Assembly (NCBI GenBank): GCA_014190895.1
Contig: BJGV01000001.1
Location: forward strand, 177,845-226,034
DNA length: 48,190 nucleotides
DNA from: Nitrosomonadaceae bacterium
Lineage (GTDB): Bacteria; Pseudomonadota; Gammaproteobacteria; Burkholderiales; Nitrosomonadaceae
Direction of reading: 5' to 3'
Below are positions 36,352 through 44,022 of the stretch, in pieces. The notes under the pieces are model-generated. The model was not told the origin of the DNA and made no database searches. It was given only the letters and a program-made list of their open reading frames with translations. A program made the position numbers and the translations under genes. Each line of letters starts with the position of its first letter. Position 1 is the first letter of the stretch.

Positions 36352-36969
36352 GTGGTACGAAGAACTAAAAAAGATGCCGAGTTAACACGGCAAAGCATTA
36401 TTAACGCAGCCCGTGAAGTATTTTTAGTGCGCGGTGTTAGTCGCACTACGATGGATCATATTGCAACCCAAGCTAACGTTACTCGTGGGGCTATTTACTG
36501 GTATTTTAATAATAAAAAGGAATTATTTCATGCTATGCGCCAGCAAGTATTTTTGCCGTTGATAGACCGTATGGATGATACCTTGTTAGTCGAAGACTCC
36601 GAGAATCCCCTTGCTCGCATAGAGAATTTTTTGCGTGAAACTATTCAGATCCTGAGTGAGAACATTGAAACGCGTCAGATTTATGAAATTATGATGATTA
36701 AATGTGAATACGTAGATGAGTTTTCCGGTGTCTTAAAGCAAATCTTATTTACCTGCTCTGGTATTGCAGAAAAAATGCAATTGGCCTATAGATACGCACA
36801 AGAGAGAGGACAGTTAAATCCTTCACATGATCCGGTGGATTTAGCCATGGACACGCATCTATTTTTTATTGGATTGCTACATATGTGGGTAAAAGACATT
36901 GATGGCAACTATTTTCGAAGTCAGGCAATTGAATTAATTAAAGCACATATGCGCCTCCGTTATTGTTGA
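36352..36969 (+). CDS. TetR-family repressor, AcrR/TtgR type
   Basis: A 205-residue transcription repressor. The N-terminal helix-turn-helix is ARE VFLVRGVSRTTMDHIATQANVTRGAIYWYFNNKKELFHAM (about residues 22-62), nearly the AcrR consensus. The C-terminal ligand-binding region (about 80-205) fits the AcrR_C group. I prefer GTG 36352, giving MVRRTKKDAELTR as in AcrR, with GAAGGA ten bases upstream; TTG 36334 would add six residues. It should bind the palindrome in the divergent region and be released by efflux substrates. Confidence 0.93.
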   Translation: MVRRTKKDAELTRQSIINAAREVFLVRGVSRTTMDHIATQANVTRGAIYWYFNNKKELFHAMRQQVFLPLIDRMDDTLLVEDSENPLARIENFLRETIQILSENIETRQIYEIMMIKCEYVDEFSGVLKQILFTCSGIAEKMQLAYRYAQERGQLNPSHDPVDLAMDTHLFFIGLLHMWVKDIDGNYFRSQAIELIKAHMRLRYC

Positions 36970-37078
36970 AAACTCTCTTCTGAGAGTAATTCTAATGACT
37001 CCATTTGCTTAGTTTAATCCCGTACAGCAATATTTACGTCCCATGGCTTGTCAATCAATACAGTCACCATGGATCTAT

Positions 37079-37103
37079 ATAGTTGACAAAATTAATCAAC
37101 TAT
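37079..37103. promoter_or_regulatory. IscR type 1 binding site
   Basis: A 25-bp site with perfect 8-bp inverted arms ATAGTTGA and TCAACTAT. Against the E. coli type 1 consensus (ATASYYGACTRwwwYAGTCRRSTAT) I count 23 of 25 positions matching. It covers the -35 hexamer of the iscR promoter, so [2Fe-2S]-IscR binding should repress the operon. Confidence 0.8.
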
Positions 37104-37111
37104 ACTATAGT
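37083..37111 (+). promoter_or_regulatory. Sigma-70 promoter of the iscR-suf operon
   Basis: A perfect TTGACA (37083-37088), 17-bp spacer, and TATAGT (37106-37111). The -35 and most of the spacer lie inside the IscR site. The leader to iscR is about 80 nt. Confidence 0.8.
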
Positions 37112-37196
37112 GTACCGTTCTAGTAGGATATTAGTACTGTCATTAATTTCTTTTTTCTTATATGCCCATTCAATTGATTTTATTTGAGTTTTTAAT

Positions 37197-37691
37197 ATGA
37201 AATTAACGACCAAAGGTCGGTTTGCTGTGACGGCGCTGCTTGATCTTGCAATGCAGCCCAGTAATCCGGTAGCGCTTGCTGATATCAGTAGACGTCAAGA
37301 TATTTCTTTATCTTATCTTGAGCAGCTATTTGCTAAACTGCGCCGAGGAGAGATTGTTGACAGTGTGCGCGGTCCAGGAGGCGGCTATTGTCTTGCTAAA
37401 GATGTGGAACAGATTTCATTAGCCGACATCATTTTAGCTGTTGACGAGCCTATTGATTCAACACGGTGCGCAGGGAAGGAGAATTGTGGCTGGAATGAAA
37501 CGAAATGCATAACCCATGATCTTTGGCAAGGTCTTAATAAAACCATTCTTGATCATCTTAAAGGAATTACATTACAGCAAGTAGTTAATGACCAAAGATT
37601 AAAACAATCAATAAAACAGGCTAGCGCTATAAAGATTCAAACCGTACAGAGAATGCTGTCAAAGAATGAGAAGAATGTAATCCCTATGTAA
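37197..37691 (+). CDS. iscR: Fe-S assembly regulator IscR (Rrf2 family)
   Basis: A 164-residue Rrf2-type regulator. The winged helix is MKLTTKGRFAVTALLDLA...ISLSYLEQLFAKLRR with wing VRGPGGGYCLA. The [2Fe-2S] ligands are Cys91, Cys97, Cys104 and His107, spaced C-X5-C-X6-C-X2-H, one residue longer than the C-X5-C-X5-C of E. coli IscR. It should sense cluster supply and repress its own operon when loaded. It is the first gene of the SUF operon, and the type 1 site in front supports autoregulation. Confidence 0.95.
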   Translation: MKLTTKGRFAVTALLDLAMQPSNPVALADISRRQDISLSYLEQLFAKLRRGEIVDSVRGPGGGYCLAKDVEQISLADIILAVDEPIDSTRCAGKENCGWNETKCITHDLWQGLNKTILDHLKGITLQQVVNDQRLKQSIKQASAIKIQTVQRMLSKNEKNVIPM

Positions 37692-37750
37692 CCTGCAAGT
37701 AAAGATCTTTTGTTTTTCAGTCAGGGGATAAACAATAAACGGAGTTGTTC

Positions 37751-38092
37751 ATGGCAATTATACTGAGCGAGAGGGCAGCAAAACACATTTGTCAACAGAT
37801 CACAAGGCGTGGCAAAGGATTAGCTCTGCGTGTTGGTATGAAAAAAGTTGGCTGTTCGGGTTTTGCTTATACTTTCGACTATGCTGATGAGATACAAATT
37901 GGTGATCAATTGTTTGAATCATATGATGCTCACATAGTCATTGATGCCCACAACTTACCCTTCCTTGATGGATCACACATTGATTTTGTGAGAGAGGGAT
38001 TAAATGATTTATTTAAGTTAGATAATCCTAACGTCGCAAATATGTGCGGCTGTGGCGAGAGTTTTAGTTTAAAAGAATCGGCAGAAATTTAA
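37751..38092 (+). CDS. sufA: SufA, A-type Fe-S carrier
   Basis: A 113-residue A-type carrier with Cys35 in KKVGCSGFAYTF, and Cys99 and Cys101 in NMCGCGESF. It receives clusters from SufBCD and passes them on. I choose ATG 37751 because CGGAG lies six bases upstream; a TTG at 37745 is also in frame. It follows iscR by about 60 bp. The second A-type protein in the window is ErpA. Confidence 0.92.
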   Translation: MAIILSERAAKHICQQITRRGKGLALRVGMKKVGCSGFAYTFDYADEIQIGDQLFESYDAHIVIDAHNLPFLDGSHIDFVREGLNDLFKLDNPNVANMCGCGESFSLKESAEI

Positions 38093-38100
38093 TCACAAAG

Positions 38101-38137
38101 AATGTTCAGAAATTTCTAAATTATTTTCTTGAACATT
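38101..38137 (+). other. Hairpin between sufA and sufB
   Basis: Arms AATGTTCA and TGAACATT (8 bp) around a 21-nt loop that itself contains GAAATTTC. There is no T run after it. It could stabilise the upstream or downstream mRNA segment or cause partial termination. Confidence 0.35.
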
Positions 38138-38172
38138 ATTCATTCTAACCTGATAGCGCCGGAGTAAATTTA

Positions 38173-39609
38173 ATGAGTGCTGTACTAAAGAATTTAATTA
38201 ACCAACCCTATAAACATGGTTTTGTTACTGAAATTGAGTCTGATATTGCGCCAAAAGGACTCAATGAGGACACTATTCGACTGATTTCAACTAAGAAGAA
38301 TGAGCCTGAGTGGCTGCTCGAGTTTCGCCTCAAGGCTTATCAGCAATGGCTCAAGATGACAGAGCCGACGTGGCCCAACGTCAAATATCCCAAGATAGAT
38401 TTCCAGGCTATCAGCTACTATGCCGCGCCGAAGCAAAAGCCGAAGCTGAAAAGCATGGACGAGGTTGATCCGGAGTTGCTGCGCACTTTCGAAAAGCTGG
38501 GCGTGCCGATGCATGAGCGTGCGGTGCTGGCTGGCGTGGCAGTTGACGTTATTTTTGACAGTGTATCGGTGGCCACGACCTATAAGCACAAGCTGGCCGA
38601 AGTTGGAATTATTTTTGGCTCATTTTCAGAAGCAGTGCAAGAGCATCCCGAGTTAGTCAAAAAATATTTGGGCACAGTCGTTCCGGTCGGCGACAATTAT
38701 TACGCTGCACTCAACTCGGCGGTGTTTACCGACGGCTCGTTCTGTTTTATCCCCAAGGGTGTCAAGTGTCCGATGGACCTTTCAACTTATTTTCGTATCA
38801 ATACTCAAGAGTCCGGACAATTTGAGCGCACTTTAATTATCGCGGAAGAAGGAGCATCAGTTTCTTACCTTGAAGGGTGTACCGCGCCCAAGTTTGACAC
38901 TAATCAACTACATGCAGCAGTAGTTGAGTTGATTGCGCTTGACAACGCCGATATAAAATATTCGACGGTACAGAACTGGTACGCGGGAGACGAGAATGGT
39001 ATTGGTGGCATTTACAATTTCGTTACTAAACGTGGTTTGGCGAAAGGCATCAATTCTCGAATTTCATGGACTCAAGTCGAGACTGGTTCGGCAATCACAT
39101 GGAAATATCCTTCTTGCGTACTACAGGGAGAGAATTCAGTTGGTGAATTTTATTCAGTAGCCGTGACTAACAATTATCAACAGGCCGACACCGGCACCAA
39201 GATGGTCCACATCGGAAAAAACACGCGCAGCACCATCGTCAGCAAAGGCATCTCGGCCGGCCACTCCAACAACAGCTACCGCGGACTGGTCAGGATTGCC
39301 CCTACTGCCACCGGTGCTCACAATTATTCACAATGTGACTCAATGTTAATCGGTAATCAGTGTAGCGCGAGTACCTTCCCTTATATTCAAGTGCTTAATA
39401 ACGGTGCTAAGGTTGAGCATGAAGCATCAACATCTAAGATAGGCGAAGAACAGTTGTTTTACTTTGCCCAACGTGGCATTAACAATGAAGAAGCGGTCTC
39501 GATGATTATTAATGGATTTTGTAAAGATGTATTTCAACAATTGCCAATGGAATTTGCAGTTGAGGCAACTCAGTTACTTGGTTTTAAGCTTGAGGGGAGC
39601 GTTGGATGA
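38173..39609 (+). CDS. sufB: Fe-S scaffold subunit SufB
   Basis: A 478-residue SufB, core of the SufBC2D scaffold on which [4Fe-4S] clusters are built. Diagnostic blocks are [82 protein letters not shown] and [16 protein letters not shown]. Length is normal. The stop overlaps the sufC start (ATGA). Base composition is patchy: 38295-38575, about 38660-38780 and 39180-39310 are 50-62% GC with mostly G or C in third positions, unlike the rest of the gene and operon. The reading frame is intact throughout. Confidence 0.97.
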
Positions 39610-40394
39610 TTTATCAGGATAGCGAAACGTTGCTTGAGGTATGCGGACTAAGAGCCAACGTTAATAACATTGAGATACTAAAAGGAATTGATCTCGTAGT
39701 GCGTAGTGGAGAAGTGCATGCCATTATGGGAACAAACGGTTCTGGTAAAAGCACCCTTGCTAAAGTTCTTGCCGGCCATGTTGCTTATGAAATTACAAGC
39801 GGCACAGTATTTTTTAAGGGTAAAAATTTACTTAATCTTGCACCAGAGGACCGTGCTCGTGAGGGAGTTTTTCTTGGTTTTCAGTACCCAATCGAGATTC
39901 CTGGCGTTGCTAATAACCAGTTCTTGCGACTTATTTACAACACAATGCGAATTCAGCATGGTAAGGATGAATTAGACCCTCTTGAATTTGATGATTTTGT
40001 ACGCGAGAAGATGCGTCTACTTGAGATAAACCCTGATTTTCTGGACCGTAGTGTTAATGAAGGTTTCTCTGGAGGCGAGAAGAAGCGCAATGAGATATTA
40101 CAAATGGCGTTACTCAGTCCCAAGCTTGCTATTCTTGATGAGACTGACTCCGGTCTTGATATAGATGCTCTTAGAGTCGTCGCTCAAGGTATTAATCAGC
40201 TTACTAATAGAGACAATGCGACCATATTAGTGACGCACTATCAACGTCTATTGAATCATATCGTGCCAGATTATGTGCACGTAATGGACTCAGGTCGTAT
40301 CATTAGGACTGGTGACAAGGAGCTTGCACTTGAGCTTGAGGCGCATGGTTATGATTGGATCGGTACCGAGCACTGTGCCATATTAGGGACATGA
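39606..40394 (+). CDS. sufC: SUF complex ATPase SufC
   Basis: A 262-residue soluble ABC-type ATPase that drives conformational change in SufBC2D. Motifs: [16 protein letters not shown] (Walker A), [14 protein letters not shown] (signature) and [14 protein letters not shown] (Walker B), with His in THYQRLL. The signature [13 protein letters not shown] is specific to SufC. Translational coupling to both neighbours is seen: its ATG overlaps the sufB stop, and its TGA overlaps the sufD ATG. Confidence 0.97.
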
Positions 40395-41704
40395 ATATAG
40401 CTAACAATGATGACTGTTTTAGAAGCATGCTTCAAGGACAGTCACAATTACCCGTAAGCCCGCTAATGTGGCTTAATAAACTAAGAGCCAGTGCTGTTGA
40501 CCGTGTTAGCGCGTTAAAAATTCCAACTACGCGTGATGAGGAATGGCGTTTTACAGATATAGCGCCGCTCACTAAATTTTTATTCCAACCTGCGGACGTT
40601 GTACCGTACCCGCAAACTGCTAATGTAAGCAGATTCTATCTTACAGAGGCGTCAATCAGGCTTGTTTTTATTGATGGCGTGTATACGTCACAATTATCCA
40701 GTAATTTATCAGATTTGACTAAAAATTCTGGCGTGATCGTTTCAAATTTGTCAACAGGAATACCGGAATATGCGGCAATGATAAAACCCCATCTAGGTGG
40801 CTATGTTGAGTTTGGGGACAATATCTTTTCTGCACTCAATACTGCATTCTTGCATGATGGAGCTCTGGTTATCGTACCGCGTGATGCGCAAGTTAAGATG
40901 CCAGTACATCTATTATTTATAACAACACAAGCAAAAGTAGTAAGTTATCCACGTTGTCTTATAGTTACCGAACCCAATAGTGCCGTGACAATCTTTGAAG
41001 ATTACGTCGCATTGCAACAAGGAACCTATGTTAATAATGCGGTGACTGAGATAACGCTTGCTAACAATGCGTCTTTAAACCATATTCGCGTGCAGCGTGA
41101 TAGTCATCAAGCATTTCATATCGGGAGTTGTGCGGTATCGCTTGCGCGATCTAGTCGCTACCAATCAGTTAATGTTGCGCTTGGTGCACGCATCTCACGT
41201 TATAACTTAAATGTTTTATTGGCCGATACGAGTGCTGAGGCTACGGTTGACGGACTGACATTGATTGCAGAACGGCAACTTGCTGATATCCATACTTGCA
41301 TTGACCATGCAAAATCAAATGGCACAAGTCGTCAATTGCATAAATGTATTGTTGGTGGCAATGCGCGTGCAGTGTTCAGTGGTAAAATTATGGTGCGTCC
41401 GGATGCTCAACACACTAACTCTTTTCAGTCGAGCCGTAATCTTTTATTAACCCTCAAGGCTCGAGTCGACACTAAACCACAGCTTGAAATTTTCGCAGAT
41501 GATGTAAAGTGTGTTCATGGTGCAACCGTTGGTCAACTTAATAATGAAGAAGTGTTTTATCTCAAAAGTCGAGGGCTATCAGATACCATGGCACGTAACT
41601 TATTAACTTATGCGTTTGGTGCAGAAATTATTGACCGCATACCTATTGCATCCCTTAGGTGTCAGTTAGAGCAAATAGTGCTCGAACAAACTCAAGGAGG
41701 CTAA
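40391..41704 (+). CDS. sufD: SUF scaffold subunit SufD
   Basis: A 437-residue SufD, partner of SufB in the scaffold. It is recognised from TRDEEWRFTDIAPL near the N-terminus, ALNTAFLHDGALVIVP in the middle, and the C-terminal FSGKIMVRPDAQHTNSFQSSRNLLL with QLEIFADDVKCVHGATVG, where the Cys and His near the end are conserved. I choose ATG 40391, which overlaps the sufC stop (ATGA); an upstream in-frame ATG at 40355 lies inside sufC. Confidence 0.95.
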   Translation: MNIANNDDCFRSMLQGQSQLPVSPLMWLNKLRASAVDRVSALKIPTTRDEEWRFTDIAPLTKFLFQPADVVPYPQTANVSRFYLTEASIRLVFIDGVYTSQLSSNLSDLTKNSGVIVSNLSTGIPEYAAMIKPHLGGYVEFGDNIFSALNTAFLHDGALVIVPRDAQVKMPVHLLFITTQAKVVSYPRCLIVTEPNSAVTIFEDYVALQQGTYVNNAVTEITLANNASLNHIRVQRDSHQAFHIGSCAVSLARSSRYQSVNVALGARISRYNLNVLLADTSAEATVDGLTLIAERQLADIHTCIDHAKSNGTSRQLHKCIVGGNARAVFSGKIMVRPDAQHTNSFQSSRNLLLTLKARVDTKPQLEIFADDVKCVHGATVGQLNNEEVFYLKSRGLSDTMARNLLTYAFGAEIIDRIPIASLRCQLEQIVLEQTQGG

Positions 41705-41707
41705 ACT

Positions 41708-42967
41708 ATGAAACTTGTCGAACCTTCTTTAAAATCATCACCTATTTCAACATTTAATATAGAGCGCATACGTTCTGATTTTCCCATCCTAAAACTTACC
41801 ATCAATGATAAGCCATTAGTTTATCTGGATAATGCAGCCTCCAGCCAGATGCCGCAATTGGTGATAGATCGCTTAGTAAGATACCAAGCTACTCAGCATG
41901 CCAATATTAATCGTGCAGTGCATTATTTGTCTGAAATAGCCACTTCAGAGTACGAAAATGCTCGTCGTAAATTACAATTTTTTATTAACGCACAAGAAGA
42001 TCGAGAGATAATTTTTACAAGTGGTGCTACTGATGCAATTAATCTGGTTGCGCATGGTTATGGCCGTAAATTTATTGGTGCCGGCGACGAAATTATTCTA
42101 ACTACGCTTGAGCATCATTCAAATATTGTACCGTGGCAAATGTTAGCTGATGAGAGAGGTGCAAAGATTCGTGTAGCACCAATTAACGATAAAGGCGAGC
42201 TAATAATTGATGCTTACGAAAGACTTTTTAATCAGCATACAAAATTTGTTAGCATGACTCATGTATCAAATGCTCTTGGCACTATAAATCCAATCAAGAA
42301 AATGATCAGATTTGCACATGCTTGTGGTGTACCAGTAATGATTGATGGCGCGCAATCTGCTCCACATATAAAAATAGACGTTCAGGATCTCGATTGCGAT
42401 TTCTATACATTTTCTGGTCATAAGTTATGTGGCCCAACTGGTATCGGTGTTCTTTATGGCAAAGCTGAGTTACTTGAACGCATGCAACCATTTAAGGGCG
42501 GTGGTGACATGATAATTTCGGTGACATTTGAGAAAACTACTTACAATACGATTCCGCATAAATTTGAAGCCGGTACGCCACCAATTGCTGCTGCAATCGC
42601 CCTTGGTGCTGCAATTGATTATTTATCAACTATCGGAATGAATGCAATCGCTGCACATGAGCTTGATTTACTCAATTACGCGACCGAGCAAATAAATTAT
42701 ATACCCGGTGTGCGCATTATCGGTAACGCTACGGAGAAAGTCGCGGTTTTGTCATTTGTCATTGATGGTATACATCCTCATGACATTGGTACACTCCTAA
42801 ATCAAGAAGGTATCGCCGTTCGTACTGGACATCATTGTGCCCAGCCAGTGATGCAGTATTTTAAAGTACCAGCAACTTCACGCGCTTCGTTTGCATTTTA
42901 TAATAACATGACTGAAGTTGATGCATTAATTGCAGGCATACGGAACGTACAGGAGGTTTTTTTATAA
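41708..42967 (+). CDS. sufS: Cysteine desulfurase SufS
   Basis: A 419-residue PLP enzyme (group II desulfurase) that takes sulphur from cysteine as a persulphide. The PLP lysine is Lys239 in TFSGHKLCGPTG and the persulphide cysteine is Cys377 in RTGHHCAQPVM. Blocks YLDNAASSQ, TSGATDAINLVA, LEHHSNIVPWQ and IDGAQSAPH fit. An AGGAGG lies at the end of sufD before the ATG. Its TAA shares one base with the ATG of the next gene, a SufU-type protein, the usual sulphur acceptor in Gram-positive bacteria. Confidence 0.97.
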   Translation: MKLVEPSLKSSPISTFNIERIRSDFPILKLTINDKPLVYLDNAASSQMPQLVIDRLVRYQATQHANINRAVHYLSEIATSEYENARRKLQFFINAQEDREIIFTSGATDAINLVAHGYGRKFIGAGDEIILTTLEHHSNIVPWQMLADERGAKIRVAPINDKGELIIDAYERLFNQHTKFVSMTHVSNALGTINPIKKMIRFAHACGVPVMIDGAQSAPHIKIDVQDLDCDFYTFSGHKLCGPTGIGVLYGKAELLERMQPFKGGGDMIISVTFEKTTYNTIPHKFEAGTPPIAAAIALGAAIDYLSTIGMNAIAAHELDLLNYATEQINYIPGVRIIGNATEKVAVLSFVIDGIHPHDIGTLLNQEGIAVRTGHHCAQPVMQYFKVPATSRASFAFYNNMTEVDALIAGIRNVQEVFL

Positions 42968-43452
42968 TGAGCACAGTTTCTTTGTATCAAGAGGTAATCT
43001 TGGATCACAATAGAAAACCTCGTAATTACGGCACTGTAGAGAATGCAAGTCACCAAGCTGAGGGTCACAATCCACTTTGTGGCGATCACTTAAGTATTAC
43101 ACTTAATCTTAGCAATCAATGTATTGATAGCATTGCATTTCAAGGAGAGTCATGCGCAATATGTAAAGCATCGGCATCAATGATGACCGTGAGCGTTATA
43201 GGAAAAATGTATGGGGATGTTGAGACGTTAGTGAAGGAATTTCGTGACATGGTGATGGGCAATCTGAACATCAATGATAGCCATCATCTTGGACGTCTAA
43301 CTATTTTTTCTGGCATACGTGATCTACCAACTCGTGTAAAGTGCGCGATCCTTCCGTGGCACACACTGCATGCAGCACTTAATTCTATAACTAATATTTC
43401 AACCGAAACTAAGAATGATTCAATACATACTATGATCAGCAAAATAGGATAA
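42967..43452 (+). CDS. sufU: SufU-type sulphur acceptor / Fe-S scaffold protein
   Basis: A 161-residue IscU/SufU-fold protein. Ligand residues are Cys38 with Asp40 (NPLCGDH), Cys63 and Cys66 (ESCAICKAS) and Cys126 (RVKCAILPW). The order LYQEVILDHNRKPRNYG and the insertion between the second and third ligands (about 80-110) mark SufU rather than IscU; the LPPVK motif of IscU is missing. In Firmicutes SufU binds zinc and takes sulphur from SufS. It is coupled to sufS by a one-base overlap. Confidence 0.93.
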   Translation: MSTVSLYQEVILDHNRKPRNYGTVENASHQAEGHNPLCGDHLSITLNLSNQCIDSIAFQGESCAICKASASMMTVSVIGKMYGDVETLVKEFRDMVMGNLNINDSHHLGRLTIFSGIRDLPTRVKCAILPWHTLHAALNSITNISTETKNDSIHTMISKIG

Positions 43453-43461
43453 AACGGGAAT

Positions 43462-44022
43462 ATGCCAAAAATCGCTGAGATAGAAGGTACGCCTAATCCC
43501 AATGCTTTGAAATTTACTCTCAAAGAGCCGTTAACCTGGGGAATTACTCGTTCCTATGACAACGCCGAACAAGCAAAAGATGACCTGCTAGCGACAGAGT
43601 TGTTTGAGATTGATCATGTAACGAATGTATTTTATGTGGATCATTGGATTACTATCACGCAAGACGGAGGAGCGAATTGGCAAGATCTGGCACGCGAGGT
43701 TGCTGATCCAATTCGTGCCGCACCAGCGGCAGATGCACAAACAGTCGCATTGGTTGCCAAAGCAATCAATGTTAGTAATGATTTAAGTCCAGCCGACCAA
43801 CTGCGTCTTAACAGAATTAACGATCTGCTTAATGAGGAAATAAGACCATATTTGCAAGGTGATGGCGGCGACCTTCATGTTCTTAGTTTGGAAGGTAATC
43901 TACTAAGCGTGCATTATCAGGGCGCATGTGGCACCTGTCCAAGTTCTATATCGGGCACGCTAAGGGGCATTGAAAATTTATTAAAATCAATAGAACCTAA
44001 TATTGAGGTTATTGCAATCTAA
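43462..44022 (+). CDS. Nfu-type Fe-S carrier (N-terminal Nfu domain plus NifU C-domain)
   Basis: A 186-residue two-domain Fe-S carrier. The N-terminal half (EIEGTPNPNALKFTL...) is the Nfu_N domain, as in mitochondrial Nfu1. The C-terminal half has LNEEIRPYLQGDGGDLHV and the cluster motif GACGTCPSS (Cys156, Cys159). It does not have the degenerate A-type N-domain of E. coli NfuA. It probably receives clusters from SufBCD and delivers them to apo-proteins. It follows sufU by nine bases and is the last gene of the operon. Confidence 0.93.
   Translation: MPKIAEIEGTPNPNALKFTLKEPLTWGITRSYDNAEQAKDDLLATELFEIDHVTNVFYVDHWITITQDGGANWQDLAREVADPIRAAPAADAQTVALVAKAINVSNDLSPADQLRLNRINDLLNEEIRPYLQGDGGDLHVLSLEGNLLSVHYQGACGTCPSSISGTLRGIENLLKSIEPNIEVIAI

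Follow-up and report, generated by a model that had tools for sequence, protein, structure and literature searches.

A predicted IscR type 1 operator over the iscR-suf genes of a Nitrosomonadaceae bacterium, conserved as a tandem pair in its relatives

In Escherichia coli, iscR is the first gene of the iscR-iscSUA-hscBA-fdx operon and is preceded by two type 1 sites, which in strain MG1655 score 24/25 and 22/25 and served here as the yardstick for the consensus. The SUF genes of E. coli form a separate operon that, according to a review, is activated via a type 2 site (PMC8593673). The same review states that IscR goes with species having the ISC machinery (PMC8593673). In Rhodobacter sphaeroides and Caulobacter crescentus, iscR leads an isc-suf operon, and its repression by IscR is already established according to papers on these two bacteria (PMC4618611, PMC11475020). 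In the betaproteobacterium Comamonas testosteroni S44, two type I sites are located upstream of iscR in the iscRSUA operon, and binding of IscR was shown there by EMSA (PMC4683182).

The locus described here belongs to a Nitrosomonadaceae bacterium and lies in a stretch of 48,190 nucleotides, the whole of which is called the window below (Table 1). It resembles the E. coli isc locus in that iscR comes first and two type 1 sites stand before it; however, the machinery of E. coli is ISC and not SUF, and its sites start 25 bp apart, not 28. With the isc-suf operons of Rhodobacter and Caulobacter it shares an iscR that leads suf genes, but Rhodobacter has a 19-bp Iron-Rhodo-box and a single-Cys IscR, whereas Nitrosomonadaceae have E. 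coli-like 25-bp tandem type 1 sites and an IscR with three cysteines and one histidine. Comamonas is like the family in its paired sites and differs from it in its ISC machinery and in the distance between the sites, which start 30 bp apart by the coordinates of the paper (PMC4683182). SUF operons led by a SufR-like Rrf2 gene (genomes G044 and G051 of our sample) also have an Rrf2 gene at their head, but this regulator is ~30% identical to the window IscR and no type 1 site scoring at least 19 accompanies it. We take these regulators to be of the TIGR02944 type.

Table 1. Predicted regulatory elements and genes of the iscR-suf locus (positions in the window)
Feature	Position	Strand	Remarks
9-bp inverted arms of site 1	37078-37086/37096-37104		
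IscR type 1 site 1	37079..37103	+	23/25 consensus match; predicted operator
-35 hexamer TTGACA	37083..37088	+	inside site 1
-10 hexamer TATAGT	37106..37111	+	overlaps left arm of site 2
Degraded second type 1 site	37107..37131	+	19/25; 28 bp start-to-start from site 1
iscR	37197..37691	+	Rrf2 regulator; C-x5-C-x6-C-x2-H; Glu of SYLEQ present
iscA/sufA-like A-type carrier	37751..38092	+	
sufB	38173..39609	+	over cut-off
sufC	39606..40394	+	over TIGR01978 cut-off
sufD	40391..41704	+	over TIGR01981 cut-off; start is the ATG overlapping sufC
sufS	41708..42967	+	over TIGR01979 cut-off
sufU	42967..43452	+	over TIGR01994 cut-off; Pfam NifU_N
nfu-like carrier	43462..44022	+	Nfu_N and NifU C-terminal domain

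From iscR through the nfu-like gene, all genes lie on a single strand with short gaps or overlaps, and we infer from this arrangement that they are transcribed as one operon. The SUF set is complete, with sufB, sufC, sufD and sufS each over its curated cut-off and the sulfur-transfer partner SufU in addition. The argH gene follows 234 bases after the nfu-like gene, and no terminator or promoter was called between the two.

Upstream of iscR, the sequence ATAGTTGACAAAATTAATCAACTAT is identical at 23 of 25 positions to ATASYYGACTRWWWYAGTCRRSTAT, which we take to be the 25-bp type 1 consensus of E. coli IscR. Its arms are perfect over 8 bp inside the 25-mer and over 9 bp when the repeat is extended by one base at both ends (TATAGTTGA/TCAACTATA). 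Site 1 is a 25-bp inverted repeat close to the consensus of its operator class, and by its sequence it overlaps a promoter of Fe-S biogenesis genes, iscR-suf being located downstream. A sequence-only reading of the window had already claimed such a site with the same arms and score, both of which were reproduced on recomputation, and had placed a -35 TTGACA inside it, where the hexamer indeed maps. Site 1 was the one match with at most three mismatches in the window (mean of 0.01 in 100 dinucleotide shuffles). A search of the whole genome (1,321,229 bases) for further type 1 sites yielded none beyond it at the same threshold, and the reversed-pattern control gave 0. A relaxed pattern with one mismatch found 6 more forward and 6 more reverse places in this genome (control: 1 each), which we do not claim as sites. 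At the level of at least 19, 4 of the 48166 plus-strand positions of the window score, the main site among them. An Rfam search of 36900-38200 returned no family. Two CCATGG palindromes, 20 bases apart, are present at 37041-37072, between the tetR gene and the IscR site.

The hexamers TTGACA and TATAGT, separated by a 17-nt spacer, match the sigma-70 promoter at 11 of 12 positions, and this predicted promoter stands 85 nt ahead of iscR; the promoter scan is weak when taken alone, as shuffles of the short region give 1.5 promoter-like hits at its looser threshold. A second type 1 site, absent from the sequence-only reading, begins exactly 28 bp after the first. In all seven sibling genomes of the genus (7/7) two sites with at most three mismatches are found, and in the window genome site 1 and the -10 have been kept and site 2 has decayed. 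Judging from this comparison, the ancestral operator was a tandem pair, and one good site of it is left in the window genome.

The conservation of this arrangement was analysed in 93 loci with a strong iscR, which gave 85 distinct upstream regions, the window counted. The best type 1 score was at least 19 in all 85, a value that mononucleotide shuffles reach in ~1.6% of cases. In 67 of the 85 regions the two top-scoring sites stand at a distance of exactly 28 bp, against 1% of mononucleotide shuffles; under the other rule applied, by which both sites had to score at least 18 at 28 bp, there were likewise 67 pairs, and 18/85 regions with a single site. For the -35 of site 1, the best -10 stands at a spacer of 17 in 67 of 67 pairs, the hexamer being TATAGT in 56, TATACT in 8 and TAAAGT in 3, and the mean number of -10 mismatches is 1.04 with the -35 placed in site 1 compared with 3.48 with the -35 in site 2. 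A single T and the left arm of site 2 together make up the conserved -10 hexamer. As this arm itself belongs to the IscR consensus, the T outside the arm, which is the first position of the -10, is the telling base: it is invariant in 64 aligned pairs, and the equivalent T before site 1 occurs in 67%. Read by eye, a -10-like sequence is also kept at this place in several of the relatives with a single site. The tandem operator appears from these alignments to supply its own -35 and -10, which would explain the spacing of 28 bp.

The family pattern, allowed up to three mismatches, was found in 23 family genomes almost only upstream of iscR-suf and of the second iscR (iscR2) discussed below; the exceptions seen were one place in G002 and, in G003, one site beside a rubrerythrin-like gene. 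Since the matches are almost confined to these upstream regions, the IscR of the family looks like a local autoregulator. In E. coli, according to the review, erpA and nfuA are served by type 1 sites as well (PMC8593673). In the sibling genome G003, a type 1 site with one mismatch to the family pattern is located at 661-685 of contig C142 (locus L193), upstream of a rubrerythrin-like gene named by eye.

The regulator encoded in the window contains the Rrf2 winged-helix domain (PF02082, 133.5 bits), and its best match among solved structures is E. coli IscR (4hf1, E 1.3e-39). It scores 198.2 bits against the TIGR02010 equivalog model, below the cut-off of 207.55; 9 of 14 control genomes gave a match to this model, and only one of them exceeded the cut-off. 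By its clade and operon position the protein is an IscR-type regulator, not a TIGR02010 equivalog. In a tree of the quick kind, in which 45 of 90 inner branches are open and the deep order is unsure, it falls inside a 30-row clade of Nitrosomonadaceae iscR1 (SH-aLRT 96). The Glu of SYLEQ and the first two cysteines are present in 91/91 IscR proteins, and so is the motif C-x5-C-xN-C-x2-H. The loop between the second and third cysteines (residues 91-107) has one extra residue in the window IscR alone (1/91), the other 90 proteins having C-x5-C-x5-C-x2-H; this residue could alter cluster binding. The recognition residues are unchanged. The end branch of the window IscR is long (0.96). A special acceleration of IscR in the window genome was considered and is unsupported, as its divergence ratio is 1.47 compared with 1.07-1.55 for the other genes of the operon. 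A second Rrf2 gene of the same genome (G000:C14:6842-7231, locus L002) is nearest to the SUF regulator and IscR models and lies below the cut-offs of all specific regulator models.

No separate isc operon with an iscR of its own was detected. The window genome, a 25-contig draft that is 99.97% complete, has one strong IscR, and a profile search for ISC and SUF genes found none of IscS, IscU and HscA over the curated cut-offs in it. The search covered this genome and 60 relatives, 37 of the 61 being Nitrosomonadaceae, and each of the three was likewise found in 0/37 family genomes; IscU (16 genomes), HscA (14) and IscS (16) were over cut-off exclusively outside the family. The IscS-like gene that remains in the window genome is below the IscS cut-off. 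SufB was over cut-off in 43/61 genomes and in 35/37 of the family, the two misses being G014 and the 51%-complete G032. By these profile matches, no complete Fe-S assembly system other than SUF was found in the genome. The amoA profile PF02461 had no match in the same near-complete 1.32 Mb genome, which may reflect an assembly gap. As it is also without a match in 5 of 11 other Nitrosomonadaceae genomes (G002, G003, G004, G007 and G011), we did not use its absence as context.

Gene order offers a view of how this combination came about. Genome comparison gives the order suhB, trmJ, iscR, ISC in E. coli, and in the bacterial order to which the window belongs the regions upstream of ISC-led iscR have a best type 1 score of at least 20 in 14 of 14 loci. 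In G047, G048 and G058, SUF genes stand behind trmJ-iscR, in the place of ISC. Of 80 loci fetched, 61 are named SUF loci next to a strong iscR, and in 24 of these SUF occupies the ISC slot behind trmJ-iscR; the others have the unit in another place or too little flanking sequence to tell. The iscR-SUF unit of Nitrosomonadaceae stands away from trmJ, and in the window and several relatives it is beside acrA/tetR. In 16 of the 17 second-iscR loci fetched, a trmJ-iscR2-IscS-like group is intact, and in the 17th (G004) iscR2 is broken; in the window genome (G000) as well as in G005 and G006, iscR2 is missing between trmJ and the IscS-like gene. At locus L153 of the window genome, suhB, trmJ and an IscS/NifS-like gene are found together, without the iscR that separates them in relatives. 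Regions upstream of iscR2 carry sites of at least 21 in 16/16 cases and the 28-bp pair in 12/16. In the tree, where many branches are open, other betaproteobacterial iscR genes that are linked to SUF join iscR1 (58 rows, SH-aLRT 83), and iscR2 is placed in a separate group (99).

These patterns fit an exchange of the machinery under one switch, either because ISC was replaced on the spot or because an iscR-SUF unit arrived, and on gene order the trmJ-iscR2-IscS-like group is best read as a remnant at the old place in Nitrosomonadaceae. A fuller scenario is proposed tentatively, at somewhat less than even odds: ISC would have been exchanged for SUF in betaproteobacteria under a conserved trmJ-iscR type 1 feedback promoter, IscR becoming a SUF-loaded sensor; in Nitrosomonadaceae the 28-bp tandem itself would supply the -35 and -10, and the window genome would have been re-tuned to one good site and a longer IscR cluster loop.

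SUF operons without an adjacent strong iscR were used as a negative control, and this control was not clean. Of 15 such loci 13 were taken, and one of them, L076, yielded no score from its 59 upstream bases. Among the remaining 12, five (L058, L071, L077, L081 and L110) have type 1 sites scoring 22-25, and the other seven have nothing above 17. Four of the five belong to Polaromonas, and the sites are located upstream of the A-type gene or sufB. Good sites in 5/12 indicate that a type 1 site over SUF needs no iscR beside it, and at these five loci IscR likely acts in trans.

We propose, with a probability of about 0.8, that the site serves as operator in a negative feedback loop: holo-IscR would repress the SUF operon to which its own gene belongs, just as isc is repressed by IscR in E. 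coli. [2Fe-2S]-IscR would bind the type 1 site covering the -35 and, in most relatives, also the second site starting at the -10; the bound protein would block RNA polymerase and so repress iscR and the entire SUF operon. When clusters or iron are short, IscR would lose its cluster and leave the site, and the SUF operon would be induced. As SUF is the sole complete Fe-S system found, SUF itself would have to load the repressing IscR. The review describes E. coli IscR as a poor SUF substrate (PMC8593673), which argues against feedback fed by SUF unless the window IscR differs in this respect. The sequence-only reading had proposed the logic of isc with SUF machinery in its place, and this view gains from the lone IscR, the absence of ISC, the complete SUF set, the conservation of the site and the synteny of the slot; binding, repression and cluster dependence at the site are predicted from sequence.

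The window genome might instead be losing the loop, with IscR as a weak or iron-blind repressor and SUF nearly constitutive. The score of 19/25 for site 2, where 7/7 siblings have two good sites, the C-x6-C spacing peculiar to the window IscR and its long end branch could all be understood in this way. However, site 1 still matches at 23/25 with perfect arms, the recognition residues are intact and the divergence of IscR lies within the range of the other operon genes, so that loss of the loop seems unlikely to us. Within the preferred reading of negative feedback, the degraded site 2 may make repression weaker here than in relatives.

A still less probable explanation is that the IscR-bound site activates SUF or acts on it dually, SUF rising with apo-IscR, as papers report for E. 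coli, where apo-IscR activates suf via a type 2 site at sufA (PMC8593673, PMC12594620). Against it, the sequence matches type 1 and spans the -35, and the -10 falls within its partner. Upstream of iscR the highest type 2 score is 19/26 against what we take to be the type 2 consensus, below unrelated places of the window that reach 22, so this search gave nothing over background there. The Glu of SYLEQ, which in E. coli prevents apo-IscR from binding type 1 sites, is also retained throughout the IscR proteins compared. Finally, a strong promoter could resemble a type 1 site by chance, given that TTGACA and an A/T-rich context raise the score, but we regard this as close to negligible: 0.01 such matches are expected per window, the right arm, unneeded by any promoter, is conserved in relatives, the tandem spacing is fixed at 28 bp, and no such site is found at SUF operons headed by another, weak Rrf2 regulator (0/6 at 19 or more).

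Our literature search turned up no account of SUF being controlled by IscR in Nitrosomonadaceae, although RegPrecise, which was outside the search, may list betaproteobacterial sites. In the Caulobacter paper the iscRS genes of betaproteobacteria are described as belonging to the isc operon, and the present loci indicate that this is not general. The betaproteobacterial form with SUF as the sole system and a tandem operator embedded in the promoter is a variant that we did not find in print. An E. coli-like IscR with type 1 sites over a sole SUF system makes it possible to test directly what allows IscR to sense the product of SUF. The family also provides a natural series of operators, with two sites, one good and one degraded site, or one site, for testing the role of tandem type 1 sites. 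More broadly, these loci suggest that a regulatory module can outlive the machine it controls.
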